NCBI GenBank assembly: GCA_003221635.1
Contig: QHSR01000062.1
Location: 1-32,910, forward strand
Length of the DNA stretch: 32,910 nt
Direction of reading: 5' to 3'
Source: Candidatus Rokuibacteriota bacterium
GTDB taxonomy: Bacteria; Methylomirabilota; Methylomirabilia; Rokubacteriales; CSP1-6
Position 1 is the first letter of the stretch. Each line of letters opens with the position of its first letter. The notes below the pieces were generated by a model that made no database searches, was not told the DNA's origin, and saw only the letters and a list, made by a program, of their open reading frames with translations. Below, one piece after another: positions 12,318 through 29,888 of this stretch. The translations under genes and the position numbers were made by a program.

Positions 12318-13307
12318 TCACGCGATCGGTTCGCGCTGCCCCGACTGCGCGGACTTGACGATCGCCTCGAGGACCGCGACGCCGTGCACCGCGTCGTCCG
12401 GCGAACATGCATACGGCGCGCGCCCTTCGATCGCGTCGGCGAATCCTTCGAGCTCGGCGCGCTCGGTGCTTGCCTGGGGGTAGTCGATCACGGTCGGTTG
12501 CGCGTTGACCATGCAGGTCGTCAGTGACCAGGTGTGCAGGTGCGGGATCGCGCCGACCGTGGCCCAGCCCTTCGAGCCGAACACCTGCATGCGCCAGCCC
12601 TCCGCCGTCGCGATGACGGTCCCGAGATACCCGCCGGCACCGTTCGTGAACCTGAACAGCATCGACGTCGTGTCGTCGAGGCCGTAGTCCAGGGTGAGCC
12701 GAGCGCTCTGCGCGAACACCGAATCGATGGGGCCGGCGAGATAGAGCATCGAATCGACGAGATGGACACCGCGTCCGGTCATGCCGCCGGCGGGCCCTTC
12801 CTCCCGTTGTTGGCGCCAGTGCTCCTGCGGGAAGCGATACACGCTCGGCCCGTTGAAGTTGCCCTCGATGTGGAGCAACCGGCCGAGCCGGCCATCCCGG
12901 AGCATGCGCCGGATCTCCTGCAGCGCCGGCTGGTACCGCCAGTTGAATCCCACCGCCAGCACGCGCCCGGCGTCCGCGCACGCCTTCGCTGCCGCTTCGG
13001 CGCTCGCCCGCGTCAGCGCGAACGGCTTGTCGGTGAAGACGTGCTTGCCGGCCCGCGCGGCCGCGATGACCTGCTCGGCGTGCTGCGTGTGCGGCGTCGC
13101 GAGCACGACCGCGTCGATGCTCGGGTCGGCGAGCGCCTTCGCGTAGTCGTTCACGAGGGCGAGACCGTGCCGCGAGGCGAAGGACGCCGCGCGCTCCGGC
13201 GTGCGCGCGACGCCCGTCGTGAAGCGGATCCGGTCGGTCTTGCCTTGCGTGCACTCCACGAGGTTCTGTCCCCAGCGCCCCGCGCCCACGATCGCGGCCC
13301 TGATCAC
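12318..13307 (-). CDS. Gfo/Idh/MocA family NAD(P)-dependent oxidoreductase
   Basis: A 329-residue sugar-dehydrogenase-type oxidoreductase. The N-terminal Rossmann motif is AAIVGAGRWGQNLV (about 4-17). The family Glu-Lys-Pro motif appears as TDKP (92-95), retaining the Lys but with Asp for Glu. VGFNWRYQPAL begins the substrate domain and GGMTGRGVHLVDSMLY carries the conserved His. The family oxidises or reduces cyclic polyols and sugars. The start is GTG at 13307, with GGGAG upstream. It is divergent from an esterase pair, with 84 bp between, which could link sugar oxidation with deacetylation. That link is inference. Confidence 0.85.
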   Translation of the reverse strand: MIRAAIVGAGRWGQNLVECTQGKTDRIRFTTGVARTPERAASFASRHGLALVNDYAKALADPSIDAVVLATPHTQHAEQVIAAARAGKHVFTDKPFALTRASAEAAAKACADAGRVLAVGFNWRYQPALQEIRRMLRDGRLGRLLHIEGNFNGPSVYRFPQEHWRQQREEGPAGGMTGRGVHLVDSMLYLAGPIDSVFAQSARLTLDYGLDDTTSMLFRFTNGAGGYLGTVIATAEGWRMQVFGSKGWATVGAIPHLHTWSLTTCMVNAQPTVIDYPQASTERAELEGFADAIEGRAPYACSPDDAVHGVAVLEAIVKSAQSGQREPIA

Positions 13308-13391
13308 GGAAGGCTCCCTTCCCTCACGCGAGATGCCTTAGCATGGCACGGTAGGCCCCTGACGTCATCGCCTCCGCCACGAGGAGAAGCC
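13308..13391. promoter_or_regulatory. Divergent intergenic region with TGACGTCA palindrome
   Basis: The 84-bp gap between the divergent oxidoreductase and esterase genes carries TGACGTCA at 13360-13367, a perfect 8-bp palindrome, 20 bases before the GAGGAG ribosome site of the esterase gene. It is a candidate operator, but an 8-bp palindrome can occur by chance. Confidence 0.25.
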
Positions 13392-14332
13392 ATGCCGAAA
13401 CCTGCATCAGCGGAGTACCGGTCCAGCGTACGCAAGCCCGACGACTTCGATGTGTTCTGGGATGATGTGCTGCGGCAGGCGTCAGCGATCCCGCTGGAGG
13501 CCGAGGTCATCCCCGACCCGCTCCGGACATCGGAAGAGATCGAGGTCTTCCAGGTGTTCTACAGCAGCATCGAGCACGTGCGCATCGCCGCCTGGTATTG
13601 CCGCCCGGCCCGGAGGATGGAACGCACACCAGCCGTCATGCTCTTGCCGGGCTATCAGATGGACCCGCCGATTCCCAAGGAGTGGGCGCGAAAGGGCTAC
13701 ATCGCGCTGTCCGTCGCACCGCGGGGCAAGCTCCGCAGCAATCGCCAGTTCAACCCCGGGTATCCCAATCTCCTCACGCACAACATCGTGGATCGGCACA
13801 CGTACGCCTACCGTGGGTTTTACGCGGACACGTGGCGCGGGATCGACTTCTTGCTGTCGCGCCCGGAGGTCGAGCCGACTCGCCTCGGGGTGACCGGGAG
13901 CAGTCAGGGCGGTGGCCTGACATCACGACCGCCGCCATGCGGCGAGAGGTGCGCGCGGCGGCGGCCGGGGCGCCGTACCTCTGCGGCTTCATGGATGCCA
14001 TCGAGCTGACCCACACCTATCCCTACGAAGAGATCAACGACTATTTGCGCCTCCATCCCGAGAGCCGCCGTGAGGTGGAGGAGACCGTCGCCTACTTCGA
14101 TGGGATCAACTTCGCCGACCGGATCGCCTGCCCGATCATCGTGAACATCGGCCTCCAAGATAACGTCTGCCCCCCGGAGACCGGCTATGCGCTGTTCAAC
14201 CGGATCGGTGCCGGGGACAAGCACTTGTATCCCTACGATGGCCATGGCCACGACGCCGGACGTTTTCGACACAGCGCCATCGTCGACCGGTTCTTTGCGC
14301 ACCATCTCCTGGGCCGAGAGGTGAGCCGATGA
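13392..14332 (+). pseudogene. Acetyl-xylan-esterase-like alpha/beta hydrolase, frameshifted
   Basis: The first frame, from ATG 13392 (GAGGAGAAG upstream), runs through VMLLPGYQMDPP and SVAPRGKLRSN to the nucleophile motif GSSQGGGL (S171, about 13901-13919). One base is then missing: from 13919 the protein continues in the next frame as DITTAAMRREVRAAAAGAPYL and on through YPYEEINDYLRLHPESR. That part includes the acid region NIGLQDNVCPPETGY and the base YDGHGHDAGR. Restoring one base gives 313 residues, exactly the length of the downstream paralogue and near the 318-325 of acetyl xylan esterases/cephalosporin C deacetylases. The stop overlaps the next start. Repaired, it would be an active-looking esterase; as it stands, translation is truncated just after the nucleophile. 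Confidence 0.75.
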
Positions 14333-15270
14333 TGGATCAGACGCCGGAAGCGTACTGGCAGGAAACGCTCGACGCTCTGGGGCGCTGTCCCGCCTGTCCC
14401 GAGATCGACGTGCTCCCGCTCAGGAGCACGGCGTTTGCCACCCTGTACGGCGTCAGGCTCACCAGTCTCGGCCCCTATCGCCTGTTCGCCTATCTGAGCA
14501 TTCCGACCGGCACGGGGCCGTTTCCCGCGATCTACTATCCACCCAAATACCAGAGCGTCCTGGAGATCATCCCGCAGGGGACCGCGAACCTGATACGCAG
14601 CCGGTACATCACGTTTTCGCTCGCGGGGCGCGGGCAACGTAACGCCGACACGCCTTACGCCGCGATGTTTCCCGGTCTGCTCACCGAGGGCATCGACCGG
14701 GCCGCGTCGTATATCTTCCGAGGCATCGTCGCGGACAGCGTCAGGGGTCTGCAGTTCCTGCTGACCCGGCGCGAGCTGGACGCCGCGCGATTGGTCGTGA
14801 TGGGAAACGACCTGGCCTTCATCACAGCTGCGCTGACGTCAGGGGCAACGCATGTCGTCGCCGCGGCCGCGCTGTTCTACCGGACCGCTGAGCTGGCCCC
14901 CAGGACCCAGGCGTATCCGCTGGAAGAGATCAACGATTACCTTCGTCTATTCCCGGCGCGTGCCGAGGCCGTGCGCCGTACTCTGGCCTACTACGACTTG
15001 CGCACCTTTGCGCCCCGCATCACCGCCACCACGCTCCTGATGGCCGGCGCCCCTGGCACCCTGCTCGATGCGCTCGCGTTGCGGCCACTGGTGACGGCGC
15101 TGCAAGGACTGGTGACGGTCCACGACTCCGAGCAATCCCTCTACAAGGACGGTCTCTACACAGAGCAGTGGATGGCCGCACCGTGTGGCATCACGGATGT
15201 CCAGTCCATTCTTCCGGAGCACTGGCGGGAATCGCGCGACAGGGCGGGCCATCTTCAGCCGTCGGCCTGA
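14329..15270 (+). CDS. Acetyl-xylan-esterase-like protein with degenerate active site
   Basis: A 313-residue paralogue of the preceding esterase, starting within its stop codon (ATGATGG). Shared blocks include YPLEEINDYLRLFP against YPYEEINDYLRLHP, and TLAYYDLRTFAPRI against TVAYFDGINFADRI. The nucleophile elbow, however, reads VVMGNDLAFITAA, so the GxSxG serine is replaced by Asp/Asn. The C-terminal His motif is also not preserved (VHDSEQSLYKDG in place of YDGHGHDAGR), and the acid loop is AGAPGTLLDAL. It is therefore probably not an esterase by the normal mechanism. Coupled translation and equal length suggest a subunit or partner of the active copy. It could instead be a duplicate drifting to a new function. 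Confidence 0.7.
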   Translation: MMDQTPEAYWQETLDALGRCPACPEIDVLPLRSTAFATLYGVRLTSLGPYRLFAYLSIPTGTGPFPAIYYPPKYQSVLEIIPQGTANLIRSRYITFSLAGRGQRNADTPYAAMFPGLLTEGIDRAASYIFRGIVADSVRGLQFLLTRRELDAARLVVMGNDLAFITAALTSGATHVVAAAALFYRTAELAPRTQAYPLEEINDYLRLFPARAEAVRRTLAYYDLRTFAPRITATTLLMAGAPGTLLDALALRPLVTALQGLVTVHDSEQSLYKDGLYTEQWMAAPCGITDVQSILPEHWRESRDRAGHLQPSA

Positions 15271-15813: not shown

Positions 15814-18465
15814 ATGATCGACAGGAAGATCTCAGCGTCTGGGCGGCGCGTCGAGCAGGGGGAGCGGGGCCGCGGGCTTCCCTCCAAAAAGATCGTCTAC
15901 CGCACTTTCCCCGTCGACGAGGGAGCCGTCGTGACGCGGCCACGGGTGGAAGGCAAGTTCCTCCACCTCGGATCCGAGAAGTTCTTCGTGAAGGGCGCGA
16001 CGTACGGCGCGTTTCCGCCGAATGGTGAGGGTCATCAGTTCCCGGAGCCAGCCACCGTGGCCCGCGACTTCGCGCTCATGCGGTACGCGGGCCTCAACGC
16101 GATCCTGACCTACACGGTACCTCCGCGCTGGCTCCTGGACCTGGCCCAGGAGCGCGGACTGCGGGTCATCGTGACTACGCCCTGGATGGAGTATCGCTGT
16201 TTTCTCGAGCAACGCGAGTTCCGCGAGCGGGCGCGCCGCGAGGTGCGGGAAGGCGTAGCGGCCTGCCGCTCCCATCCCGCGGTCCTCATGTATTGCGTGG
16301 GGAAGGAGATCCCTCCCGGCATCGTCCGCTGGCACGGACCCCGAAGGGTCGCGGCGTTCCTGCGTGAGCTCTATCACGTCGCCAAGGACGCGGATCCCGA
16401 CAGCCTCGTCACGTACACGAACTTCCCGACGACCGAGCACCTGGAGCTTCCTTTCGTCGATGTCTACACCTTTAATCTTTACCTCCACCAGCGGCGCGAT
16501 CTCTGCGCGTACCTGTCCCGGCTCCAGCACGTCGCCGGTGAGCTGCCGCTCGTGCTGACCGAGTTCGGGATGTGCAGCTTCCGGCACGGCGCCGACGGGC
16601 AGGCGACATTCCTCGACTGGCAGATCGAGGAGATCTTCGATCATGGGCTGGCGGGGGCAGTGATCTTCGGCTGGACCGACCCGTTCTTCCAGGACGGGTG
16701 CCTCATCGAGGAGTGGGGATTCGGGCTCGTCGACGCCGGGCGCTGGCCGAAGCTCGCGTATGAGGCCGTCCGTCGCCGCTTCCTCACCGGCGTGCCATTC
16801 CCCACCGAGCGACGGCTTCCCCGGATCTCGGTCGTCGTGGCCACGTACAACGCGGCCCGCACCCTGGACGATTGCCTTCGGTCCCTGATGAAGCTCGATT
16901 ATCCGGACTACGAGGTCATCGTCGTCAACGACGGGTCCACGGACGGGACCGCGGATATCATCCGGCGGTATCCGTTCCGCTCGATTACCACGCCCAACCG
17001 CGGCGTGAGCGCCGCCCGCAACGAGGGGCTGCGGGCCGCCACCGGGGAGATCGTCGCGTACATCGACTCGGACGCTCGGGCCGATTCGGACTGGCTGTCC
17101 TACTTGGCCGCGACCTTTCTGGAATCCGACGTCGTCGGCGTCGGCGGGCCGAACCTGGTGCCACCGGAGGACAGCTGGGTCGCGAAGTGCGTCTACCGAG
17201 CGCCGGGCGGCCCGACGCAGGTGATGCTCGACGATCGATCGGCCGAGCACATCCCGGGCTGCAACATGGCGTTCCGGAGGTGCGCTCTGGAGGAAATCGG
17301 CGGGTTCGACCCGATCTTCAAGAAGGCGGCGGACGACGTGGACATCTGCTGGCGCCTGCTCGAGCGCGGCTACCGGATCGGCTTCAGCCCGTCGGCGGTC
17401 GTCTGGCACCATCGTCGCCCATCGGTGCACGCGTACTGGCGACAGCAGGTCGGATACGGCGAGTCCGAGGCCCTCCTGGAGCGGAAGCACCCGCACAAGT
17501 TCAATCCCTGGGGCCACACCTTCTGGGCCGGTCGCATCTACGGGCCGTACCCTTTCTTCAGGCTCTTCAGCCGCCCGGTGATTTATCAGGGTCTCTGGGG
17601 GTCGGCCGGATTCCAGTCGATGTACGACCCGGGCGGCGGGGGCATCCTGACGTTCCTACCCCGGGCCATGGAGTTCCACTTCGCGCTCGTCGCGCTCGCA
17701 TTGCTCGGGGTCTTCGTCCCATGGGCCCTCGCCATCGTGGGTCTCGGGCTCGGGTACACGGCCTGGTACTGTGTCGCCAGCGCGGCCGCCGCTACGCTGA
17801 GTGACTTCGCACCGGCGGACGGTCCGGCGACGTGGCTTCGGCGGCTCTGCTGGCGCGCGACCATCGCGTGGCTCCACTTCCTCGAGCCGCTGGCCCGCGA
17901 CTGGGGTCGCCTGAGCGGAGGGCTGACGCCGTGGCGGAGCGCGCTCCCGGAGGGCGGGCTTCGGCTTCGGGGCAGTCATGTCTGGGAACGGCTTCAGCCG
18001 TTCCGGCGCCGCCCGCGCTGGGCCTTTCGCGGCGGCGTCGAGTTGGAAAAGTTTACGTTCCTGGACCGCCTGACCCAGAGACTCGCAGCGCGGGGCTGCG
18101 CGGTGGGTTGGAACGCGGACTGGCACAACTGGGACCTCAAGGTGAGGCGAGGCGCGCTCGGGGAGGCGGAGCTCCGGATGGTGGTCGAGCATCACGGCGG
18201 GCCCCGGCGAGTTGGCCGAGTCGCCGCCACGATCCGGCTGCCGAGGACGGTGTACTGGGCCCAGGGGACCCTCGTCGGCCTGGCTCTCGCGCTGGGTGCG
18301 CTCGGCCTCCGAGTGCCCGTCGCGGTCGTCGGCGCTCTCCTGAGCGTTCTGTGGATCGCGCCCATCCGCGAGGCGAACCGTCTGGAAGCCGCGGTCCAAT
18401 CGGCGACCGCCGAGGTGGCGAGGGACCTGGGGGGGAACGAGTCCGGGGAAGCCGCCTCTGGCTGA
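15814..18465 (+). CDS. Glycoside hydrolase (GH2-like barrel) fused to a membrane GT2 glycosyltransferase
   Basis: An 883-residue fusion. Residues about 50-325 form a TIM-barrel domain like the catalytic domain of GH2/GH5-type beta-glycosidases: FFVKGATYGAFPP at the start, candidate acid/base E165 in YCVGKEIPPG, candidate nucleophile E250 in LVLTEFGM. Residues about 337-600 are a GT2 domain: ISVVVATYNAARTLDDCL, VIVVNDGSTDGTAD, the DxD motif D418-S-D420, the acceptor-base region KAADDVDICWRL (507-510) and a QQVGYGESEALL tail motif. Hydrophobic segments at about 622-660 and 815-850 should place it in the inner membrane. ATG 15814 is chosen because the upstream frame is low quality. It heads the glycan locus and probably polymerises or extends a polysaccharide, trimming or sensing it with the barrel domain. 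The polymer is unknown. Confidence 0.8.
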   Translation: MIDRKISASGRRVEQGERGRGLPSKKIVYRTFPVDEGAVVTRPRVEGKFLHLGSEKFFVKGATYGAFPPNGEGHQFPEPATVARDFALMRYAGLNAILTYTVPPRWLLDLAQERGLRVIVTTPWMEYRCFLEQREFRERARREVREGVAACRSHPAVLMYCVGKEIPPGIVRWHGPRRVAAFLRELYHVAKDADPDSLVTYTNFPTTEHLELPFVDVYTFNLYLHQRRDLCAYLSRLQHVAGELPLVLTEFGMCSFRHGADGQATFLDWQIEEIFDHGLAGAVIFGWTDPFFQDGCLIEEWGFGLVDAGRWPKLAYEAVRRRFLTGVPFPTERRLPRISVVVATYNAARTLDDCLRSLMKLDYPDYEVIVVNDGSTDGTADIIRRYPFRSITTPNRGVSAARNEGLRAATGEIVAYIDSDARADSDWLSYLAATFLESDVVGVGGPNLVPPEDSWVAKCVYRAPGGPTQVMLDDRSAEHIPGCNMAFRRCALEEIGGFDPIFKKAADDVDICWRLLERGYRIGFSPSAVVWHHRRPSVHAYWRQQVGYGESEALLERKHPHKFNPWGHTFWAGRIYGPYPFFRLFSRPVIYQGLWGSAGFQSMYDPGGGGILTFLPRAMEFHFALVALALLGVFVPWALAIVGLGLGYTAWYCVASAAAATLSDFAPADGPATWLRRLCWRATIAWLHFLEPLARDWGRLSGGLTPWRSALPEGGLRLRGSHVWERLQPFRRRPRWAFRGGVELEKFTFLDRLTQRLAARGCAVGWNADWHNWDLKVRRGALGEAELRMVVEHHGGPRRVGRVAATIRLPRTVYWAQGTLVGLALALGALGLRVPVAVVGALLSVLWIAPIREANRLEAAVQSATAEVARDLGGNESGEAASG

Positions 18466-18478
18466 CATCCAAAACGTT

Positions 18479-20153
18479 GTGACGACGACCCGGTACCCGA
18501 GCCTCACGCTCTATCGGCGGTTGCTTCAGCAGGCGCGGCCCTACTGGCCACACATCGCCGGCATCTTCTTGCTGAGTCTTCTCTCGCCCCCGCTCATGCT
18601 CCTGACTCCATTGCCCCTGAAGATCGTCGTGGACAGTGTCATTGGAGCGGACCCGGTTCCCGGCTTCCTGGCCGCGCTGCTGCCGGCGGCCGCCACGAGG
18701 TCAAGGGCCACCGTGCTCGTGACCGCCGCCCTGCTGTTGGTGGCCATCACCCTGCTCATGTGCCTGCGCGGGCTGGGGGTACCACGACACGAAGGGTGCG
18801 ACCGACTCCACCTATCGCATCCAGTACGATGCTCCCGCGATCCAGTGGGTCCTGGTCAATGGCGTGACGCCGTTCCTCACCGCGGCCCTCACCCTCATCG
18901 GGATGATCGTCGTAACGGCGAGGATCGACGACCAGCTGGCGTTCGTCGCGCTGGCGGTGTCACCAGGCCTGTTCTTGCTCGCCCGGGCGTCGAGCCGCCG
19001 CCTTCGCAGTCGCTGGTATCAGGTCAAGGCTGTTCAAAGCCTGGCGATGTCAGTGGTGCAGGAGGTCCTGGCGGCCGTGCGCGTCGTCAAGGCGTTTGGA
19101 CAGGAGGACCGGGAGCAGAAACGTTTTCTCCAGCACGCGAGCCGAGGCGTCCGGGGACAGATGGAGCTGGCCTTTCTCGAGGGTGGCTTCGATCTCCTGG
19201 TCGGCCTGACGATCGCCGTGGGCACGGCCGCCGTGCTCGTGATCGGCGTCCTTCACGTGCAATCGGGCACCCTCACGCTGGGGGCACTCCTGATGGTGAT
19301 GGCGTACCTGGCCCAGCTCTACGGGCCGATGGAAACCATCACCAAGAAGATGGCGGACCTCCAGGCGTCGTTAGCCAGCGCGGAAAGGGCGTTCACTCTG
19401 CTGGACGAGCTGCCTGACGTGGCCGAACGTCCCGGTGCTCGGTCGATCTCGCGGGCATCGGGCGCCGTCGCGTTCCAGAATGTCTCGTTCGCGTACGACA
19501 AGAATCACGCGGTGCTGCACGACATCTCCTTGGAGATCGGGCCGGGAACGCGGGTGGGCATCGTGGGCACTACGGGGGCCGGGAAGACGACGCTGGTGAG
19601 TCTTCTCACGCGGTTCTACGATCCGACGGCCGGCCGGATCCTGCTCGACGGCGTCGATCTACGCGATTTCAGAATCGCCGACCTCCGGAACCAGTTCTCC
19701 ATCGTCCTCCAGGACCCCGTGCTGCTGTCGAGCAGCATCGCCGAAAATATCGGCTACGCGCGGCCCGGCGCCGGCCAGCGGGAAGTCATGGCGGCGGCGG
19801 AGCTGGCCAACGCGCACCAGTTCATCATCGGGCTTCCGGACGGGTACGAGACCCAGGTCGGGGAGCGAGGCATGCGCCTCTCGGGAGGCGAACGGCAGCG
19901 CATCGCGCTCGCCCGGGCGTTCCTGAAGGATGCTCCGATCCTGATCCTGGACGAGCCGACCAGTGCGGTCGACGCGGCCACCGAGGCCGGGATCATGGAG
20001 GCGATCGAGCGTCTCGTGCGGGGCCACACGACCTTCGTCATCGCTCACCGCCAGAGCACGTTACGGGGCTGCGACGCGCTCCTGGCCATCGCCGACGGCC
20101 GACTCGTTCATGGGGACGCCGCCGTGTCGATTTCCACGGGGGTAGGGCGATGA
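18479..20153 (+). pseudogene. MsbA-like ABC exporter (TMD-NBD), frameshifted with internal loss
   Basis: The C-terminal NBD is intact and complete: Walker A GTTGAGKTT, Q-loop SIVLQDPVL, signature LSGGERQR, Walker B ILILDEPTSAVD and H-loop IAHRQST. The TMD begins at GTG 18479 and reads well to the second helix (LLLVAITLLMCLRGLG). At about 18757-18780 the frame jumps by +1, resuming with YHDTKGATDSTYRIQYDAPA at 18780. In relatives about 35 residues (end of helix 2 plus the conserved LR..LF..LQ.L segment) lie between these points, so a piece as well as the frame is missing. Otherwise this is a half-transporter of about 590 residues that would flip or export the glycan or its lipid-linked precursor. 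Start codon usage and lack of a ribosome site suggest coupling to the preceding gene. Confidence 0.8.
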
Positions 20154-21316
20154 GATCACGGCTTCGCGTGATCGTGACGGGCCTGATCGCGCAGTACCCC
20201 CTCGGTGGCGTGACCTGGGATTACGTGCAGTACCTCCTGGGATTCGCTCGCCTCGGCCACGACGTCTACTACCTCGAGGATACGGGGCAGTGGCCGTACA
20301 ACCCCGTTGCGGGGGCCCTGGGGGCCGACTGCGCATACAACGTGGGCTATCTGGCCAAAGTGATGTCGCGGTTCGGACTCGACGACCGGTGGGCCTACCG
20401 TTTCGCCGACAAGGCGCGCCGGAAATCCGAATGGTTCGGCCTCAGTGACCTGGACCGCGCGGCCGTCGTGGAATCGGCAGACCTCCTCGTCAACCTTTCC
20501 TGCGCATTGGAGCGGTGCGAACGCTACCGGCGGGTGTCGCGGCTCGTTCTAATCGACACCGACCCAGTCTTCACCCAGATCAAGCTGGCTCGCGGGCAGC
20601 GCGACTTTGCTGCCCAGGTTGATGCCCATGATGCCCACTTCAGCTTCGGAGAGTGTCTGTCCGATCGCATTCCTCGGACGGGACACCGTTGGCGCGCCAC
20701 CAGGCAGCCGATCGTGCTTTCCGAATGGCGGCCCGCTGCCACCCCGCGGAACGTCGTCACCACCGTCATGAATTGGACCAGCTACCGCTCGGTGGCGTAC
20801 GGTGGTCAGAGCTACGGGCAGAAGGACGTCGAGTTCATGCGCTTCCTCGAGCTCCCGGGCCTCGTCTCGCCCACCGTTCTCGAAGTCGCGGTCGGTCCCG
20901 GCAAGACCCGGCGTACGCCTCGAGAACTCCTGACACACAAGGGCTGGCGCGTCGTCGATCCGGCGCGCGTCTGCCCTGATGTCGACCGCTACCGGGACTA
21001 CATCCAGTCGTCACTGGCGGAGTGGAGCGTCGCCAAGAACGGCTACGTCGTCGGCCGGCCCGGATGGTTCAGTGGCCGGTCGGCCTGTTATCTGGCTGCT
21101 GCGAAGCCCGTGATCGTCCAGGACACAGGGGTGGGGACGGTCCTTCCGGTCGGCCAGGGGATCTTGACATTCGACACGCTCGAGGCGGCGGCGGACGCCA
21201 TTCGCGAGGTGGAATCGGACTACGACCGTCACGCCAGGGCGGCGCGTGAGATCGCCGAGGCCTGCTTCGATTCCGGCAAAGTGCTTTCCCGGCTGCTGGA
21301 GGAGGCGCTGGACTGA
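20150..21316 (+). CDS. GT-B-like glycosyltransferase, first of a tandem pair
   Basis: A 388-residue protein with an N-terminal Rossmann-like start, LRVIVTGLIAQYPLGGVTWD, and GFARLGHDVYYLEDTG. The C-terminal block GYVVGRPGWFSGRSACYLAA followed by KPVIVQDTG resembles the donor-binding half of GT-B glycosyltransferases, including the CgeB-like group. I cannot assign a CAZy family. ATG 20150 overlaps the ABC exporter stop (ATGA), and its own stop overlaps the next start, so all three are coupled. It is clearly paralogous to the following gene across its length. Probable role: a cytosolic transferase adding sugar to the surface glycan, or a glycan-modifying partner. Confidence 0.65.
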   Translation: MRSRLRVIVTGLIAQYPLGGVTWDYVQYLLGFARLGHDVYYLEDTGQWPYNPVAGALGADCAYNVGYLAKVMSRFGLDDRWAYRFADKARRKSEWFGLSDLDRAAVVESADLLVNLSCALERCERYRRVSRLVLIDTDPVFTQIKLARGQRDFAAQVDAHDAHFSFGECLSDRIPRTGHRWRATRQPIVLSEWRPAATPRNVVTTVMNWTSYRSVAYGGQSYGQKDVEFMRFLELPGLVSPTVLEVAVGPGKTRRTPRELLTHKGWRVVDPARVCPDVDRYRDYIQSSLAEWSVAKNGYVVGRPGWFSGRSACYLAAAKPVIVQDTGVGTVLPVGQGILTFDTLEAAADAIREVESDYDRHARAAREIAEACFDSGKVLSRLLEEALD

Positions 21317-22509
21317 TGAAGGTCGACCGTCTGGCCAGCGGACGCCTACGCATCGTGGTGCTGGGGTATGTCGTGCGCGGGCCTCTCGGCGGGATGGTGT
21401 GGAGCAACCTGCAGTACCTCATGGGCCTCGCCCGCCTCGGCCACGACGTGTATTTCGTCGAGGATAGCGATGACTACCCGTCGTGCTACGACCCGATCAG
21501 GGATACCGTCGACGTCGACCCGAGCTATGTGCTCGACTTTTCCCGAGACGCCTTCGAGCGGATCGGGTTCGGCGGACGGTGGGCATACCACGATTCGCAT
21601 ACCTCTCGCTGGCGCGGCCCGTGCGCCGACAGGGCCCTCGACATCTGCGCTGGCGCCGAGCTCCTCCTCAATCTGTGCGGAGCGAATCCGCTCCGGCCCT
21701 GGCTGATGGAGATCCCCGTCAGGGCGCTGGTCGACGAAGACCCGGCCTTCACGCAGATACGACACCTCACGGAGCCCGGCGCTCGAGAGCGCGCCCTGCT
21801 CCACACGGCCTTCTTTTCGTTCGGGGAGAACATCGGTCACGCGGGCTGCGCCGTTCCGGACGACGGGCTGCCCTGGCGGCCGACCCGTCAACCCGTGGCG
21901 TTGGACGTGTTGCCCGTGACACCAGGACGGCCGGCCGGCAAATTCACGACGGTCATGCTGTGGGACAGCTACGCGGCGCCCGAATACCGCGGCGTGCGGT
22001 ACGGCATGAAGTCCGACTCCTTCGCGCCCTACCTGGACCTGCCCGAGCGGGCCGGACGCGTCTTCGAGTTGGCGGTCGGCAGCCCATCGGCACCGTGCAC
22101 CCTTCTGCGGCAGAAGGGGTGGACGGTGTGTGACCCGCGCGGGCCGACCCGAGACCCGTGGACCTATCAACGATACGTGGAGGCGTCCAAGGGCGAGTTC
22201 GCGGTGGCCAAGCACGGGTATGTGATAAGCCGGAGCGGATGGTTCAGCGAGCGAAGCGTCACCTACCTCGCCAGTGGTCGCCCGGTGCTGCTTCAGGATA
22301 CCGGCTTCTCCCGGTGGTTGCGGACGGGAGCGGGCGTCATTCCCTTCAATACGCCGGCGGAGGCGGTGGCCGGGATCGGCGAAATCGACGGCGCCTACGA
22401 CCGCCATTGCCGGGCCGCCCGCGAGATCGCCGAGGAATACTTTGACGCGCGCAAAGTACTCCCGGCGTTGATCGCATGTGCCATGGAGAGTGTTTCGTGG
22501 GTGGGGTGA
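21316..22509 (+). CDS. GT-B-like glycosyltransferase, second of a tandem pair
   Basis: A 397-residue paralogue of the preceding protein. Matching blocks are LRIVVLGYVVRGPLGGMVWS, GLARLGHDVYFVEDSDDYP, VDEDPAFTQIRHL (against IDTDPVFTQIKLA), GYVISRSGWFSERSVTYLAS, RPVLLQDTGFS and YDRHCRAAREIAEEYFDARK. The paired copies diverge most in the middle, between the two Rossmann domains, where acceptor specificity usually lies. The start ATG 21316 shares a base with the previous stop (TGATG), and the gene hands over to the GT4 gene in the same way. Likely a transferase acting on the same glycan with a different acceptor or linkage. Confidence 0.65.
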   Translation: MKVDRLASGRLRIVVLGYVVRGPLGGMVWSNLQYLMGLARLGHDVYFVEDSDDYPSCYDPIRDTVDVDPSYVLDFSRDAFERIGFGGRWAYHDSHTSRWRGPCADRALDICAGAELLLNLCGANPLRPWLMEIPVRALVDEDPAFTQIRHLTEPGARERALLHTAFFSFGENIGHAGCAVPDDGLPWRPTRQPVALDVLPVTPGRPAGKFTTVMLWDSYAAPEYRGVRYGMKSDSFAPYLDLPERAGRVFELAVGSPSAPCTLLRQKGWTVCDPRGPTRDPWTYQRYVEASKGEFAVAKHGYVISRSGWFSERSVTYLASGRPVLLQDTGFSRWLRTGAGVIPFNTPAEAVAGIGEIDGAYDRHCRAAREIAEEYFDARKVLPALIACAMESVSWVG

Positions 22510-23777
22510 TGCGCCTGCGCCGGGAGCGGCCGCTCATCGCGTTCTTTGACCACTGTGACGTGTTCGAGGACTTCTACCCGCACTACGGTATCGACCAGCG
22601 GAATTTTGCGACGCGCTGGGCGGGGACAGGGAATCACGCGTTCGTGTCCCTTTTGCAGCGCGAAATCGGAGACGTCATCTGGTATGCCTTCTCGTTGGCG
22701 CCTCAGCTGTCCGAGGCGCAGCATGAGCTCGTGCGCTGCCGCATCAAGATCCTGCCATCGTCGTGGCTCCACCGCCGCCTCTGGCGCCTGTTCTATCTGC
22801 CGGCGGCGGCCTGGCGCTGGCGCCGCGCGTATCCGCCCTACGCGACGGTCGCGTCTTACGTCTCGCTGGCCTCGCGATCGTTCCTCGCGACGATCCGACG
22901 CGATCGCCCGGATTTCTTTTTCGTCCAGGACTACTCGAGCGGCCGCTTCGACGTGCTGCTCGCGGTTGCGCGCGCGCTCGGGGCTCGGCTGATCGCGTAC
23001 CACTCGGGAAGTCGGCCGGACCGCTACCTCGGACGCGCGGCAAAGCGGTGGACGATTCCACGCGCCGACCGACTCGTCGTCTCCAGTCAGGACGAGAAGA
23101 AAATGCTGATCGAGCGCTTCCGTGTTGCTCCGGCGCGGATCAGCGTCATTCTCACCCCGATCGACACGAGCGCGTTTCGACCGTTCGGGCGGGCGATGGC
23201 CACGCGTCTGGCGGGGCTCGACCCGGATCGCCGCTACGTTCTGTTCGTGGGGCGGCTCGACGATTCCGTGAAGCGTGTCAGCGCGCTGATCCGGAGCTTT
23301 GCCGGGCTGGCGCCCCTCCATCCGGACGTCGACCTCCTCGTCGCGGGTGAGGGACCGGACGGCCAGGGGCTACGGCGACTGGCGGCGGAGCTCGCACCTG
23401 GCCGCGTCCGCTTCCTCGGCTGGATCACGGGAGCCGAGACGCTGGCGGCGCTGTACAACTCGGCCGAGTGCCTGGTGCTTCCGTCGCGCAGCGAAGGGTT
23501 TCCGACCGTCGTCGGGGAAGCGATGGCATGCGGGACGCCGGTCCTGGCCTCGAGCGTCGGCGGCGTGGGTGAGCTCGTCGTCGACGGGTTGACCGGCTGG
23601 CTGTTTCCGCCCGGCGACGACGCCGCGCTCGGAGACCGGCTCTCCTTTGCGCTGACGTACCCGGATGTCACGGCCCGGATGCGGCCGGCAGCGCGGCGGA
23701 TCGCCGAAGCTCGCGTCTCGCCAGCGGCCGTCGCCGTCGAGCTCCGCAGGTGTTTCTCGGGGGGAGGCAGTGGATAG
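22509..23777 (+). CDS. Family 4 glycosyltransferase
   Basis: A 422-residue GT-B enzyme with the GT4 (glycosyl transferases group 1) C-terminal domain. YVLFVGRLDDSVKRVSALI opens the domain, followed by LLVAGEGPDGQGL and RVRFLGWITGAETLAALYNS. The donor-binding EX7E motif is in SEGFPTVVGEAMACGTPV, and ASSVGGVGELV completes the site. The N-terminal acceptor domain includes a basic, aromatic RRLWRLFYLPAAAWRWRR stretch, likely a membrane-surface anchor. ATG 22509 overlaps the preceding stop by one base; a GTG or ATG slightly upstream is possible. It uses a nucleotide sugar with retention of configuration, as is typical for the family. Donor and acceptor are unknown. Confidence 0.9.
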   Translation: MRLRRERPLIAFFDHCDVFEDFYPHYGIDQRNFATRWAGTGNHAFVSLLQREIGDVIWYAFSLAPQLSEAQHELVRCRIKILPSSWLHRRLWRLFYLPAAAWRWRRAYPPYATVASYVSLASRSFLATIRRDRPDFFFVQDYSSGRFDVLLAVARALGARLIAYHSGSRPDRYLGRAAKRWTIPRADRLVVSSQDEKKMLIERFRVAPARISVILTPIDTSAFRPFGRAMATRLAGLDPDRRYVLFVGRLDDSVKRVSALIRSFAGLAPLHPDVDLLVAGEGPDGQGLRRLAAELAPGRVRFLGWITGAETLAALYNSAECLVLPSRSEGFPTVVGEAMACGTPVLASSVGGVGELVVDGLTGWLFPPGDDAALGDRLSFALTYPDVTARMRPAARRIAEARVSPAAVAVELRRCFSGGGSG

Positions 23778-25605
23778 GGAGCCCACGCGGGCGCGAACCC
23801 CTGTCATCCTGGTAGCCTCGGATGTGGCGCTGCCCGCGGCGCACCGGGTATGGGGCACGGGCGGATGGCTCCCACCTGAAGAGCGGGAGGCCCTCGACTG
23901 GTTGACCTTGTCGAGGCTGTTGGGCTGGCGTGTGACGGTCGCCCGACCGTCCGGCGCCGGTCTTCAGGAAGCGTTTGCTGCCGGTGGCCGATGCGTGGTC
24001 CTGGCCTGTGACCCCGACTCTCTCGAAGCGGACCTCGTCGCGTTCCTCGGGTCTCGGCTCGCCGTCGAGCCGCTCCTGGTCCTCGGGCGCGCCGCCAGCC
24101 GCGACAGTGCGCTCGCCGGCTTGGCCGGCGCTGCTCGGGAGCCGGACGAGCTGGTGGGCCGATCGCTATCCTGGATCGGGCCGGGACCGGCGCGCACCTG
24201 GCACTGCCGCGCGGCGCTTACCGCGAGCGCCCTGACGCTGTCGCGCGCGGCGTCGTCCTGGACGGCCCTCGAGGGCGCGTCCATCGTGGCGGCCCGACCG
24301 GTGGGTCGGGGGATGGTCGCGACGCTCGCATTTCATCCGAGCGTCGCGCGCGACGTCGACGGCGCCGTGACCGCCTTGTTGAAGCACCTGCTGATCTGGG
24401 CCGCACAGACACCAGTGGCATGGATCGACCTCGAGGGAAGCCTGGTCCTCAGAATGGATGATCCCGGCGGGTCGCAGAATGTCCACCTGCGATCATGGTC
24501 CTATCCCAAGCTCCGCGAGGCTGACTGGACGGCGATCGCCGCCGATCTGAAGCGCCGACAGGCCCGCATGGCGCTCGGCTACGTCGGAGGCTGGGTCGAC
24601 GATGGCGATCCGGCGCGAGGCGTTCTGAGAGTGGGCGGGCAGGTACCCCGCCGGATCCCCGGTCGCGTTTACTCCTCGCCGCGAGTGAAGTATTCGCCAC
24701 GAATCGAGTCGCCCTCTCGAGCCGGCTACAGGGCGGCGGGAGCGGTGCAGGACTACGAGGGCGAGTTTCGCGGCATCCAGGCTGTCCGCCGAGCGGGGTT
24801 AGGGGACGTCGAGCTGCATGGTCACACTCACATGCACCCGGATACCGCCTCCTGGGCGACTGCCGCGGATCGCTTTGAGGCGGAATCCTGGTACCGCGAG
24901 CTCGGGAGCCCAGCGGAGGCGGCTCTCGCCGCTCGCCGATCCGACCACCATCCGCTCGTTCTCGGGCTCGGCGTGCTCCGCAAGTATTTCGGCGTACGCC
25001 CGACCACGCTGATCTGCCCGGGCGACCAGTGGACCAACAGGGTCCTGGAAGTCGCGCTGGACCTGGCGCTGCGCCTCGTCAGCAGCTATTACCTGGCGCT
25101 GCGCGACGGCGATCGTTTCTGCTGGACGCAACACGTGTGCGCGCCGTACCTCGACGAACCGAATGCCGCCTGGTTCGATGCCGGGCTGCCTGTGGTGGGG
25201 TACTTTCACGACCGCGATGTCGCGCTTGGCGGCATTGACTGGCTGGGCAGATGCCTCGACCGGTGGCAGAGTGCCGGGGCCAGACGGCTGATCGATCTTC
25301 GTGAGCTCTCGACCGCGGTGGGGCATTCCTTTGACCTCGACCTGCATGATGGCGCATTGCGCCTGACGGTCACAGGCGACGGGGCGCCGCCGCTCGTGCG
25401 CCCCCTGACGGTCGGCGTGCGTACTCCTTCTGGTGAGATCCCGTCGGCGATCTCCGTCTGGATGCAGGGCTCGCGCAGCTCAATCGGGGTCCATCGGCTG
25501 GGCCATGGGGTCGGCCACGTGACACTGGCGCCGCCGGAATCGAAGCCGGGGCGCAAGGAACCGATGGGGCGACGCCGCCGGGCACCCGCGCGCTTGACAC
25601 GCTGA
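23770..25605 (+). CDS. Polysaccharide-deacetylase-like protein with large N-terminal domain
   Basis: The 611-residue protein starts at GTG 23770, which overlaps the GT4 stop and follows GGGGAGG. The N-terminal 215 residues (PVILVASDVALPAAHRVWG ... GRGMVATLAFHPSVARDVDG) look like a glutamine-amidotransferase-like or BatA-type Rossmann domain that I cannot name. From about residue 225 a NodB-like beta/alpha barrel begins: LVLRMDDPGGSQN carries the acidic pair, and VELHGHTHMHPD (His 350, 352, 354 and 356) gives the metal ligands. The barrel closes with VVGYFHDRDVAL and a C-terminal beta domain. Polysaccharide deacetylases remove N- or O-acetyl groups using Zn or Co. No signal peptide is evident, so it may act before export. 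The tail after residue 590 is basic and low-complexity and may be an artefact of the adjacent junction. Confidence 0.6.
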   Translation: MDREPTRARTPVILVASDVALPAAHRVWGTGGWLPPEEREALDWLTLSRLLGWRVTVARPSGAGLQEAFAAGGRCVVLACDPDSLEADLVAFLGSRLAVEPLLVLGRAASRDSALAGLAGAAREPDELVGRSLSWIGPGPARTWHCRAALTASALTLSRAASSWTALEGASIVAARPVGRGMVATLAFHPSVARDVDGAVTALLKHLLIWAAQTPVAWIDLEGSLVLRMDDPGGSQNVHLRSWSYPKLREADWTAIAADLKRRQARMALGYVGGWVDDGDPARGVLRVGGQVPRRIPGRVYSSPRVKYSPRIESPSRAGYRAAGAVQDYEGEFRGIQAVRRAGLGDVELHGHTHMHPDTASWATAADRFEAESWYRELGSPAEAALAARRSDHHPLVLGLGVLRKYFGVRPTTLICPGDQWTNRVLEVALDLALRLVSSYYLALRDGDRFCWTQHVCAPYLDEPNAAWFDAGLPVVGYFHDRDVALGGIDWLGRCLDRWQSAGARRLIDLRELSTAVGHSFDLDLHDGALRLTVTGDGAPPLVRPLTVGVRTPSGEIPSAISVWMQGSRSSIGVHRLGHGVGHVTLAPPESKPGRKEPMGRRRRAPARLTR

Positions 25606-26015: not shown

Positions 26016-26948
26016 CTACTTGCCGGCGAGCCGCGCGACGATGGGAGCGAGGACTTCCAGGTAGGGCTCGAACGTGACGAAGTAGGAGATACCCCAGCGA
26101 TCGCGGCGCGCTTGGAGGGCTTCGACCATCTCGTCCACCGTGCCGATCAACACGTAGGGAGCCTCGAGGATCTCCTCGACGCTGAGCTGCTTCCAGCTCT
26201 GCTGGAGCTCTTCGGCCGCCCGACGCCGGCGATCCGTCACGATCACTCGCTGGATCTGCACGCTCAGCTCGAGACGATCGAATCGCTGGCCGGCCGCTTC
26301 CCGCACCACTCGCATGCGCTCATCGATGCCCGCCACCTTCCATCCAGACATGTCGGGCACCGTGCCGCCTCGAGTGAACGTGATGCCCGTGAGGTTCACG
26401 GTATCGGCCTCTTTCGCCGCCAGCGCGAGGAGGCGAGGGCCATTGCCCCCGATGATGATGGGCGGATGGGGTCGCTGGACGGGAAGCGGAGGGATCCGGT
26501 GGCCTGCGACTCGGTAGTGCTGGCCGGTGAAATCGACTTCGGCCCCGCCGAGCAAGCCCTTGATGATGGCCACCGACTCGGCGAGCCGCTCGACCCTGGT
26601 CCCGCCTCGATCGAAGCGAAGCCCGGCCTGATCGTATTCGATCCGCATGTACCCCGCGCCCAGCCCCAGCTCGAGCCGGCCATCCGTCAGCATGTCGATC
26701 GTCGCCGCCTCACGCGCGAGCAGCACGGGATGGCGGAGGTCGTTGTTGAGCACATTCGTGCCGACCCTGAGGCTCCTCGTCGCGTCCGCGGCGCTCATCA
26801 CCGCCGGTATGGTCGCCAGCATGGCGGCCAGGTGATCGGGCACCAAGAGCACGGAGTAGCCGAGAGCCTCGACCTTGCGCGCCTTGTCTTGCCAGTCGGC
26901 CCGCGACGTGCCGTCCCGCACATTGATCCCGAAGCGGAACGGCTTCAT
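26016..26948 (-). CDS. LLM class F420-type oxidoreductase (TIGR03621-like)
   Basis: A 310-residue luciferase-like protein beginning MKPFRFGINVRDGTSRADWQ, with ALGYSVLLVPDHLAAMLATI, NVLNNDLRHPVLLAREAATI and LELGLGAGYMRIEYDQAGL. This layout matches the actinobacterial F420-dependent subgroup TIGR03621. The loop PHPPIIIGGNGPRLLALAAK contacts the flavin phosphate. The start ATG 26948 overlaps the TPP enzyme stop (ATGA), showing that the two are coupled. Use of F420 rather than FMN is inferred from the subgroup; no F420 biosynthesis genes are in the window. Confidence 0.8.
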   Translation of the reverse strand: MKPFRFGINVRDGTSRADWQDKARKVEALGYSVLLVPDHLAAMLATIPAVMSAADATRSLRVGTNVLNNDLRHPVLLAREAATIDMLTDGRLELGLGAGYMRIEYDQAGLRFDRGGTRVERLAESVAIIKGLLGGAEVDFTGQHYRVAGHRIPPLPVQRPHPPIIIGGNGPRLLALAAKEADTVNLTGITFTRGGTVPDMSGWKVAGIDERMRVVREAAGQRFDRLELSVQIQRVIVTDRRRRAAEELQQSWKQLSVEEILEAPYVLIGTVDEMVEALQARRDRWGISYFVTFEPYLEVLAPIVARLAGK

Positions 26949-28627
26949 GTCGCCGATGGTCGCCACGCCCGCTTGGACATCGCGTCGACGTCGCTGATGA
27001 CCTCGACGACGGCCGGGCAATTCGAGGCCAGGGCTTTGTCCAGCGCGGGCCTGATGTCCTCGGGGCGCTCCACGCGAATACCGACGCAGCCCATGGCCTC
27101 GGCCACCTTGGCGAAGTTCACCTCGTGGCTGAAGTGCCACATCTCGGTCGCGCGGCCGCGCTGCTGGCCCTTGTACGCGGAGTCGAAGAGGTGCTTCTCC
27201 TGGTTCAGCGCGTAGTTGTTGTTGACCAGCATGATGGCGTTGATGTTGAAGCGGGCGGCGGTCTCCAGCTCGGCGAGGTGATAGTAGAAGCCGCCATCCC
27301 CGCAGAACCCGATCACCGGCCTGTCGGGTAACGCGCACTTCGCGCCGAGCGTAGCCGGAAAGCCCCAGCCCAGGGAGCCGGCGCAGCGGAGGAAACGCTG
27401 CCCCGGCTTCCCGAGCCGGATCATCTGGCCGGTCCACATGCCGGAGTGGCCGGTGTCCGACAGCACCACGCCGCCCTCCGGCAGCCAATCCGAAATCTCC
27501 TTGCAGATCCGCTCCGGGCGAATGGGCACCGCGTCCGAGCTGCGGATCTGATCTGATTCTTCCCGGTATTCCCGCACCAGGCCCTGCACCCGGCTGAGCC
27601 ACTCCCGCCGCGGCCGCGCCGGCTGCACGCTGGCGATGAGCTTCTGCAGCGTCACCTTCGCGTCACCGAGCAGCGCCGCTTGCAGCGGATAATTGCGCCC
27701 CAGCTCTTCCGGATCGATGTCGAGCTGGATCGCGGCGATCCCCGGCCTGGGGACTTGCCAGTTGGTGGTGACCTGTCCGCCGGCGTGGCTGCCGATGAAG
27801 AAGACCAGGTCAGCCTCGGAGACGACCCGGTTGGCGCACCAGCGGGAGTAGGTCCCGGGAACCCCGACGTTCAACGGATGGTCGTCGGACAGGGCAGCTT
27901 TCGCGTTAAGCGACGTCGCGACGGGGATCTGCAGAAGCTCGGCCAGCTTGCTGAGCTCAGGTTCGGCGCCCGACCAGATCACGCCGCCTCCGGCGATGAT
28001 GACGGGCCGCTCGGCCTGGGCCAGCACGTGAGCCGCTGCCCGCACCGCGGCGGGCTCCGGCTCGGGCCGAAACGCCGGGACCTTCATGAAGCGCTCCTCC
28101 CAGAACGGGATCAGGTCGGCCTCGCGCTCGAGGACCTGGGCGTGGGTGCCCGACATCTCCAGATGCACCGGCCCCGGTGCCGAGCTGGTCGCGACGCGGA
28201 AGGCCTGGCGCAGCAGGTCCGGGAATCGATCCAGGGCGTCCACGTGGAAGTTCGCCTTGGTGACGTGCTCCCACATTGGGAAGTCTTCGATCTCCTGGTA
28301 GACGTGCTTGTACCGCGACGTGGCGTCGACGCCGCCGGTCAGGGCGATGACGGGCGAGCACGCCATGTAGGCGTCCCGCAGTCCGGCGGCGAGGTTGGCG
28401 GAGCCGATGGTCTGGGCCAGGCAGAGGCCGGGACGGTGAGCCGCCCGGGCGTAGCCATCGGCCATATACGCCGCCGCCTTCTCACCATGCGTCACCACGC
28501 GGCGGATATCCAGGTCCTCCATCTCGGCCATGGCCGGCAGCATGATGGTGGGAACGAAAAAGACGTGGCTGATGCCGTAGGCGTGCACCGCCTCGGCAAA
28601 ATACCGGTTGCCCGTCATGCGTGGCAT
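26945..28627 (-). CDS. Thiamine diphosphate-dependent enzyme, acetolactate synthase-like
   Basis: A 560-residue TPP enzyme with standard PYR, central and PP domains. The activating Glu is E49 in THGEKAAAYMADGYA. The metal/diphosphate motif runs from GDGG (443-446) to the canonical NN at 469-470 in LVNNNYALNQEK. The start has AGGAGGT 4 bases upstream, and the upstream LLM stop is only 9 bp away. Compared with the 533-residue TPP enzyme at 1541-3142, it has the usual Asn ligands and a different N-terminus (FVPTIMLPAM against FGIPSGNVLPLL). Likely a 2-oxo-acid decarboxylase or carboligase of a degradative route shared with the two flanking LLM enzymes. True acetolactate synthase is less likely, as no small subunit is present. 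Confidence 0.85.
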   Translation of the reverse strand: MPRMTGNRYFAEAVHAYGISHVFFVPTIMLPAMAEMEDLDIRRVVTHGEKAAAYMADGYARAAHRPGLCLAQTIGSANLAAGLRDAYMACSPVIALTGGVDATSRYKHVYQEIEDFPMWEHVTKANFHVDALDRFPDLLRQAFRVATSSAPGPVHLEMSGTHAQVLEREADLIPFWEERFMKVPAFRPEPEPAAVRAAAHVLAQAERPVIIAGGGVIWSGAEPELSKLAELLQIPVATSLNAKAALSDDHPLNVGVPGTYSRWCANRVVSEADLVFFIGSHAGGQVTTNWQVPRPGIAAIQLDIDPEELGRNYPLQAALLGDAKVTLQKLIASVQPARPRREWLSRVQGLVREYREESDQIRSSDAVPIRPERICKEISDWLPEGGVVLSDTGHSGMWTGQMIRLGKPGQRFLRCAGSLGWGFPATLGAKCALPDRPVIGFCGDGGFYYHLAELETAARFNINAIMLVNNNYALNQEKHLFDSAYKGQQRGRATEMWHFSHEVNFAKVAEAMGCVGIRVERPEDIRPALDKALASNCPAVVEVISDVDAMSKRAWRPSAT

Positions 28628-28636
28628 GGTGACCTC

Positions 28637-29701
28637 CTAGCGGAACGCGGGGGCGACGTGCTCGCCGAAGCGGCGGAGCGACGCCATGGCCTTGTCGTGA
28701 GCGAGCCCGCCCCAGCTCGCCTGGCACATGACGTGGCCGAGGCCGACGTCGCGCAGCGCCGCGATTTGCTCGGCCACGTGCTTCGGCGTTCCGTAGAGCG
28801 CGCCAGTCTCGAGGACGAAGCGGACGCCGTCAGGATGGGAGACAGCGGGATCCATCCACGGATTTATCGCCGACGCGTTCACGCGGAAGTCGGCTGGGTT
28901 GTAGGCCTCGCGCACGTGGTGCATGTGCTGGCGGTAGTGCAGCGTCGCTTCGTGGACGTCGTCCTCCGCCTGGGCCTCGCTGTCGGCGACGTAGAGGAAG
29001 CGCCATACCGACGCCTCGCCGAGGAGACGGCGCCGCGTAGCCGCGTCGTATCCCCCGGCCTCGAGGCCCTCGCGGTAGCGCTGGAGGCGCTCGGGGATCT
29101 TCGCGTTCGGCACGCGCGACATCATCACGGGGATGCCGGCCCGGCCGCACTCGACGAGCGACTCGACGGCTATCACGCTGCGCCAGATCGGCGGATGCGG
29201 CCGCTGCACGGGGCGCGGCCGGACCGCGGGCAGCCGGACCGAGAAGAACTTCCCCTCGTGGACGAACGGCTCCTCGGTCCAGGCGCGCGTGAGCACCTCG
29301 ACCGCTTCCTCCATCCGTTCACGACTGTCGTCACTCCGGAGGCCGAAGCCGACGTACTCGTACTCGTTGTAGCTGGAGCCGCGGCCGATGCCGACCTCCA
29401 GACGCCCGCGGCTGAGGTTGTCGAGCACGGCGAGTTGGATGGCGAGGCGCACGGGATGGTGGAGCGCCATCTGGATGACGGCGAACCCCAGCCGCGCGCG
29501 CGAGGTGCGCGCCGCGAGCGCGCCGGCGAATGGAATCGGGTCGGCATAGGCGCACTCGCCGGTGAAGTTGTGCTCGGTGAGCCAGAGGTAATCGAAGCCC
29601 ATCGCCTCGGCCAGCACCCCCTGCTCGAGCTGCTCATGGACGCAGGCCAGGTCATCCGCGGCCGACGGGGACAAGGACAGGGTCATCCACCCGAACTTCA
29701 T
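28637..29701 (-). CDS. LLM class flavin-dependent monooxygenase
   Basis: A 354-residue luciferase-like monooxygenase starting MKFGWMTLSLSPS, with DYLWLTEHNFTGECAYADP, the ALHHPVRLAIQLAVLDNLSRG flavin-site helix, LEVGIGRGSSYNEYEYVG, and the PRPVQRPHPPIWRSV loop. This is the FMN-dependent alkanal-monooxygenase type, in which FMNH2 is supplied by a separate reductase. It is the first gene of the LLM/TPP/LLM operon and lies divergent from a flavin reductase family gene, which suits a two-component system. ATG 29701 was chosen by alignment of the first beta strand; no good ribosome site precedes it. Confidence 0.85.
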   Translation of the reverse strand: MKFGWMTLSLSPSAADDLACVHEQLEQGVLAEAMGFDYLWLTEHNFTGECAYADPIPFAGALAARTSRARLGFAVIQMALHHPVRLAIQLAVLDNLSRGRLEVGIGRGSSYNEYEYVGFGLRSDDSRERMEEAVEVLTRAWTEEPFVHEGKFFSVRLPAVRPRPVQRPHPPIWRSVIAVESLVECGRAGIPVMMSRVPNAKIPERLQRYREGLEAGGYDAATRRRLLGEASVWRFLYVADSEAQAEDDVHEATLHYRQHMHHVREAYNPADFRVNASAINPWMDPAVSHPDGVRFVLETGALYGTPKHVAEQIAALRDVGLGHVMCQASWGGLAHDKAMASLRRFGEHVAPAFR

Positions 29702-29888
29702 GGTGTCCGAACATACGGCAGGAGCCGGTACGACGTCCAGCGCCGCCGGCAGGCGTCCTGCCATCGCGAGAGAAATTGCCTCGGGCTGTGTGTGCCGTGA
29801 CGCGCGCCGGCTCCTTCGTCCCTGCCCCCCCGGTGACGGCGGTCCGGTATACTGCCACGGCGCCGTGATCCGGCGAGGGAGGATTCAA
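29702..29888. promoter_or_regulatory. Divergent promoter region between LLM operon and flavin reductase
   Basis: This 187-bp gap between divergent genes contains TATACT at 29848-29853, a good -10 match 35 bases before the flavin reductase start, though without a clear -35 at the right distance. GGGAGG at 29878-29883 is the ribosome site for the GTG start at 29889. Confidence 0.3.

Follow-up and report, generated by a model that had tools for sequence, protein, structure and literature searches.

The locus described here raises the question of why a glycosidase-type barrel and a membrane glycosyltransferase would be joined in one polypeptide, and what the barrel would do to a chain made by its neighbor. 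It lies in a stretch of 32,910 nucleotides (the window) of contig QHSR01000062.1, from a Candidatus Rokuibacteriota bacterium, a soil organism. Positions 15814-18465 of the forward strand form one uninterrupted open reading frame of 883 codons. A sequence-only reading of this DNA had described a glycosidase barrel and a membrane GT2 in a single protein, and both the continuous frame and the Pfam matches of its product (PF02836 and PF00535) bear this out. The start codon of the fusion is unsettled, given a further in-frame ATG upstream, at 15637, and a variable N-terminus. The features of the locus are listed in Table 1.

Table 1. Features of the fusion gene and its surroundings, in window coordinates.
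Feature	Position	Strand	Basis or remark
Fusion protein, 883 aa	15814..18465	+	Order: barrel, GT2, hydrophobic region, small soluble domain, hydrophobic region
GH2-type, clan GH-A-like barrel, about residues 44-325	15943..16788	+	PF02836; homologous barrels match PF02836 and PDB 9fz9
Lys164-Glu165, candidate acid/base Glu	16303..16308	+	Codons AAG GAG; Glu in 93/93 rows, preceding Asn in 92/93
Glu250, candidate nucleophile	16561..16563	+	Glu in 93/93 rows; aligned Glu of 9fz9 is Ala in 9g4n
Cys254, Asp in 92/93 rows	16573..16575	+	93-row alignment
Phe291, Trp in 92/93 rows	16684..16686	+	93-row alignment
GT2 domain, about residues 336-600	16819..17613	+	PF00535; nearest NCBIfam model MftF, below cut-off
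DSD motif of GT2, residues 418-420	17065..17073	+	93-row alignment
DDVD motif of GT2, residues 507-510	17332..17343	+	93-row alignment
First hydrophobic region, residues 617-650	17662..17763	+	Hydropathy
Second hydrophobic region, residues 818-854, after small soluble domain	18265..18375	+	Hydropathy
MsbA-type ABC exporter gene, N-terminal piece	18479..18778	+	Homologue comparison
ABC exporter gene, remaining piece, other frame	18780..20153	+	About 30 homologue residues missing at junction
Glycosyltransferase-like protein (presumably CgeB-like)	20150..21316	+	Weak PF13524
Related glycosyltransferase-like protein, similar cassette partner	21316..22509	+	No Pfam family at E 0.01
GT4-type glycosyltransferase	22476..23777	+	Cassette membership uncertain; one weak match elsewhere (L101)
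Thiamine-pyrophosphate/luciferase-like set	1544-3142, 26948-28627, 4105-5319, 26019-27602, 28640-29764	-	

The fusion of barrel and GT2 in this frame is real. The source is a draft genome of 335 contigs, in which an assembly chimera might be suspected, but this is extremely improbable given how often the same arrangement recurs. A scan of named genomes with the barrel (tblastn, E 1e-3) gave at least 569 relatives among 588 stretches, of which the best 80 were kept, a set biased towards the query and consisting mostly of metagenome-assembled genomes (MAGs). The sequence-only reading had proposed that the same domain order be sought in other genomes, and 78 of these best 80 of at least 569 loci show it, with the barrel ahead of the GT2 in a single frame; the exceptions are one locus cut by a contig end (L053) and one with a broken frame (L075). 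Carriers among the best 80 belong to Rokubacteria, Cyanobacteria, Proteobacteria, Binatia, Chloroflexi and Bacteroidota. The records not marked as MAGs include those of Nostoc, Scytonema, Segetibacter, Fundidesulfovibrio, Desulforhabdus and Desulfoferrobacter, and with the order present in Nostoc, Fundidesulfovibrio, Desulforhabdus and Segetibacter among them a chimera is refuted for the family. One record titled as a Klebsiella pneumoniae MAG (L036) also carries the cassette; its label looks doubtful.

In the genome of the window and those of its relatives, the fusion or fragments thereof are present in 9 of 39 genomes. Three of the relatives have two copies, and the window's genome has three: the window copy, a second copy (C86) and a fragment with a run of N (C319). 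Over the phylum, 16 of 95 genomes gave a barrel match at E 1e-10. There were 22 matches in all, 19 of them within open frames of at least 745 aa. Of the three in shorter frames, two run into a contig end or a stretch of N, and the third is that of genome G078. Such a patchy spread would fit horizontal transfer. Close GT2 relatives without a barrel were considered and rejected, as the matches below the fusions and fragments in the 39 genomes fall to about 100 bits. In plasmid records, no relative of the Nostoc protein was found at E 1e-30. Conservation was counted in an alignment of 93 rows, comprising the window copy, 13 loci of its own genome and relatives, and 79 named loci, after exclusion of L018 and L075; three rows (L027-L029) duplicate the contigs of L019, L014 and L020, leaving about 90 distinct sequences.

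The window barrel matches the GH2 TIM-barrel family PF02836 with 27.7 bits, above the gathering cut-off of 21, over residues 73-252. When 40 barrels, corresponding to 40 rows of the family set, were scanned at E 0.01, this family (GH2_C) was the commonest match, found in 38 of them. A profile built from the 40 barrels has its best PDB match in 9fz9 (E 7e-21), named as a GH2 catalytic-domain protein, and many further PDB matches are GH2 β-glucuronidases and β-galactosidases. The (β/α)8 fold of the barrel is predicted from the matches to PF02836 and 9fz9. The family also resembles GH72 glucanosyltransferases (PF03198), which are matched by 35 of the 40 barrels at E 0.01 with a best E of 4e-11. 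The GH72 score is 16.4 bits for the first barrel member and 21.1 bits for the C86 copy, against a cut-off of 25.9, and PF03198 is not among the Pfam matches of the window protein at E 0.01. GH72 is known mainly from fungal secreted enzymes. The sequence-only reading had called the barrel "GH2/GH5-like". An assignment to GH5 is rejected, since PF00150 was matched by only 1 of the 40 barrels; a GH17 assignment is also rejected, that family being absent from the Pfam matches of the window protein and of the 40 barrels. A barrel scoring to no glycosidase family, the outcome named as fatal to that reading, was not what we found, as both PF02836 and PF03198 are matched. The protein differs from GH2 enzymes in its accompanying domains: of the six Pfam families that its 883 residues match at E 0.01, none is the N-terminal sugar-binding or the immunoglobulin-like domain of GH2. 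A PHROGs search with the barrel gave no match.

Both residues proposed earlier as catalytic candidates, E165 and E250, are glutamates in all 93 aligned rows. The glutamate pair of clan GH-A, with the acid/base on strand 4 and the nucleophile on strand 7, is present, the placement of E165 and E250 on these strands being predicted from the profile alignment and from the general features of the clan. PDB entry 9g4n, a variant of 9fz9, carries an alanine exactly at the position aligned with E250. Depositors of glycosidase structures commonly mutate the nucleophile, and E250 would therefore fit that role. It should be mentioned that some glycoside hydrolase barrels elsewhere have lost activity, so that the barrel could in principle serve as a non-catalytic carbohydrate-binding platform throughout the family. 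The pattern of conservation makes this very unlikely: when gaps are ignored, 39 of 282 barrel columns are invariant over the 93 rows, and of the 22 glutamates of the window barrel only 165, 208 and 250 fall in such columns. An asparagine directly precedes the acid/base glutamate in 92 of 93 rows, the window copy with its Lys164 being the single exception.

The GT2 domain of the window protein matches PF00535 with E 1.7e-33 over residues 339-496. The DxD motif noticed earlier is D418-S-D420, in which both aspartates are kept in all 92 rows bearing a letter there; Asp507, Asp508 and Asp510 of the DDVD motif are kept in 90 of 90 such rows. The glutamate pair and the DxD are thus conserved together across the homologues. 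The nearest NCBIfam model is that of the mycofactocin glycosyltransferase MftF (TIGR03965), to which the window GT2 scores 179.3 bits, below the cut-off of 280. The same model is matched by the GT2 domains of all 59 members scanned, with the lowest best E among the NCBIfam models. The QxxRW motif of processive, BcsA-like GT2 enzymes occurs in 1 of the 93 rows (L106), and there outside the GT2 domain; in this count 5 of the 93 rows are gapped at column 544 close by, and a few rows end before the region. A processive GT2 synthase is rejected on this basis, and with it the description of the domain as "processive-looking". The other elements of the sequence-only observation, namely the fusion, the glutamate pair, the DxD and the two hydrophobic regions, are all found, the last at residues 617-650 and 818-854.

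The topology of the protein was judged by hydropathy and not by a topology predictor. In the window protein, no hydrophobic region precedes the GT2, and among the best 80 of at least 569 loci no open reading frame holding both domains has a hydrophobic segment between them. A hydrophobic stretch ahead of the barrel was seen in 4 of these 80 stop-to-stop frames, in a part where it is uncertain which start codon is used. The nucleotide sugars that GT2 domains use are cytoplasmic. Considering this together with the missing hydrophobic separator, the barrel is likely cytoplasmic, and barrel and GT2 probably both face the cytoplasm.

Downstream of the fusion, 58 of 68 loci have a same-strand ABC exporter gene no more than 3.5 kb away, the 68 being those of the best 80 of at least 569 that have at least 2 kb of downstream room, with L075 set aside. 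All 10 loci without an adjacent exporter belong to Syntrophobacteraceae or to other Deltaproteobacteria/Desulfobacterota, going by the titles or genera of their records. An exporter is also present in 12 of the 14 loci of the window's own genome and its relatives, three of which are the contigs of L027-L029. For the exporters scanned, MsbA-type models are best or nearly so, with every model shown below its curated cut-off, and for those tested the chvA model is far below its own. It is noted that the exporter and the fusion have not strictly travelled together, because pairwise distances over 58 loci correlate at 0.54 between barrel and exporter, far below the 0.87 between barrel and GT2. The CgeB-like partner, for which PF13524 matches are weak, is found in 38 of the 62 loci of the best 80 of at least 569 that have 5 kb of downstream sequence. 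A sugar epimerase match occurs in 20 of the 80 loci, and in 17 cases it lies upstream in the same orientation; hexapeptide acyltransferases are present in the Nostoc, Segetibacter and Chloroflexi loci inspected. No Pfam family was found for the small C-terminal soluble domain. In Nostoc (L046) the fusion protein extends no further than the first hydrophobic region, and the gene directly downstream (L046:10016-10579, 188 aa) encodes a match to the C-terminal soluble domain of the window protein (E 9e-11). As the domain is there a separate adjacent gene, it probably belongs to the machine; such separate genes form a cluster of 13, including that of Nostoc L046.

To our knowledge, few fusions of a synthase with a glycosidase-type domain are known, and two of these, Cgs and GH17-GT2, concern the synthesis of ring-shaped glucans. 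They are enough to qualify the earlier remark that making and cutting enzymes are usually separate proteins, even though the domains involved are different (PMC10237404, PMC10901819). The GH17-GT2 synthases of pseudomonads ("Orphan" and NdvB) are described as having an N-terminal TIM-barrel glycosidase-type domain that is predicted to be periplasmic, with a transmembrane region linking it to a BcsA-like GT2 that carries Q(Q/R)xRW (PMC10237404). The placement of a glycosidase-type barrel N-terminal to a GT2 is shared with the window family, which in contrast has no GH17 match, no hydrophobic separator and no QxxRW in the GT2. In the cyclic-glucan synthase Cgs (GT84-GH94), the glycosyltransferase, the cyclase and the GH94 domain are all reported to be cytoplasmic (PMC10901819); the enzyme combines GT84 and GH94 with an (α/α)6 GH189 domain (PMC10901819, PMC11842490), and an ABC transporter is known for its product (PMC11842490). 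The likeness lies in combining a glycosyltransferase with glycoside-hydrolase-type parts within a single membrane protein, in the window family probably on the cytoplasmic side as well and with a candidate ABC exporter encoded next to most copies; the domains differ, being GT2 and a GH-A-type barrel in the window family, and no GH94-type family is among the Pfam matches of the window protein. Cgs with its exporter is the closest analogue.

MftF is the closest described relative of the GT2 half among the NCBIfam models; the window GT2 remains below its cut-off, and MftF presumably has no barrel. MftF builds chains of up to nine β-1,4-glucoses (PMC7491314). This product and the Cgs precedent are the grounds for proposing a short β-glycan that would be edited by a retaining barrel and then exported.

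We thus tentatively propose, at somewhat less than even confidence, that members of this family are membrane-anchored proteins which both synthesize and edit a glycan destined for export. Working at the cytoplasmic face of the inner membrane, the MftF-related GT2 would extend an acceptor with a short β-linked sugar chain. The retaining clan GH-A-type barrel, located on that side too, would cut the chain as it grows and hand it over, with transglycosylation (chain transfer, branching or ring closure) as the most likely route and plain trimming as a less likely one. The co-encoded MsbA-type ABC exporter would move the product across the membrane, and the neighboring glycosyltransferases, sugar epimerases and acyltransferases would supply or decorate the glycan. 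The observations from which this scheme starts are the fusion, the domain order, the conservation of both active sites, the gene neighborhood and the lack of a hydrophobic separator between the domains; from these we infer the cytoplasmic side, the β linkage, the transglycosylation and the export of the product.

The barrel could instead act by hydrolysis, shortening or recycling chains that are too long or faulty and so providing length or quality control without transfer. GH2 enzymes are mostly hydrolases, and the barrel has GH2_C as its commonest match and a GH2 protein as its best PDB match; the slightly greater frequency of GH2_C than of GH72 (38 against 35 of 40) and the GH72 score of the first member, which is below its cut-off, count against the transfer reading. 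However, the GH72 glucanosyltransferase matches extend over most of the same barrels, and a constitutive cutter beside its own cytoplasmic synthase would waste product unless it were restrained. For these two reasons the balance would lean towards transfer, and hydrolysis appears possible but rather unlikely. A broader version of the transfer reading, that of a cross-phylum cytoplasmic synthase whose barrel, unrelated to the editing domains of Cgs, transglycosylates the GT2 chain (by cyclization or transfer, for example), whose dedicated ABC exporter ships it and which evolved independently of the Cgs/exporter pair, is put forward only as a doubtful candidate. As for the coupling of the two activities suggested by the sequence-only reading, the conservation of the fusion across phyla supports it, in a form that may be control of chain length, cyclization, branching or priming. 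This interpretation is upheld in part: the results that could have overturned it did not appear and coupling gains support, while the processive character is not supported.

The window copy itself is the most diverged member of the family. Four changes in its barrel that the earlier reading overlooked, N164K, Y209H, D254C and W291F, occur in this copy only, each in a column where the other 92 of 93 rows agree; position 209, for example, is Tyr in all of those rows. It is also alone in having Pro290, where the other rows have 80 Glu and 12 Asp. Its tip branch is the longest of 87 (0.555, with a median of 0.065), and it shows 13 departures at columns conserved in at least 97% of rows, the next highest row having 4. 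The exporter gene behind it (18479-20153) lacks about 30 residues present in homologues and changes frame between 18778 and 18780. With such changes, the window barrel may be impaired, working poorly or not at all. One explanation, to which we give a little under an even chance and which applies to this copy only, is that barrel catalysis has been lost, leaving a glycan-binding or scaffold domain, or that the locus is decaying.

Several features of the same copy stand against such a loss. Both catalytic glutamates are retained, the frame is open over 883 codons, and every window piece measured has a coding-like GC content at third positions (0.81-0.89). The GT2 departs from conserved columns as often as the barrel does (6 of 74 and 6 of 59, respectively), so that the barrel does not clearly stand out. 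The long branch may in part reflect sampling, since genomes close to that of the window may be missing from the named-genome scan and C319, the nearest copy (56% identity), did not have the length needed for inclusion in the tree. Finally, a short gap with a change of frame likewise occurs, at about 3890-3910, in the exporter gene of the second cassette of the same genome, L015 (G000:C86). Two exporter breaks in one draft genome suggest either an assembly fault, which would weaken the case for loss, or parallel decay. Whichever applies, we would not use the window copy for testing the family.

The fusion family is widespread and apparently undescribed. No paper describing the architecture, the neighbor genes or the PDB codes 9fz9 and 9g4n was found in the open-access literature, and among the NCBIfam models shown none is matched by the window protein above its cut-off; it is from these two results that we call the family undescribed. 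It represents a third synthase-glycosidase architecture, beside Cgs and GH17-GT2, and at least 569 genome stretches encode a relative of its barrel. The arrangement suggests a glycan that is built and edited in one place before leaving the cell. The presence of the family in cultured Nostoc, Segetibacter and sulfate reducers makes directly testable whether the barrel cyclizes, branches or trims.

Other genes in the window were also recorded. Two acetyl-xylan-esterase-like (AXE1) frames are located upstream of the fusion (12534-14006 and 14329-15267), and their match is absent from the 14 loci of the window's own genome and relatives. A 646-aa protein encoded at 23665-25605 has a weak polysaccharide-deacetylase match (PF01522, E 0.003). 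The glycan genes are flanked on both sides by two thiamine-pyrophosphate enzymes and three luciferase-like monooxygenase matches.
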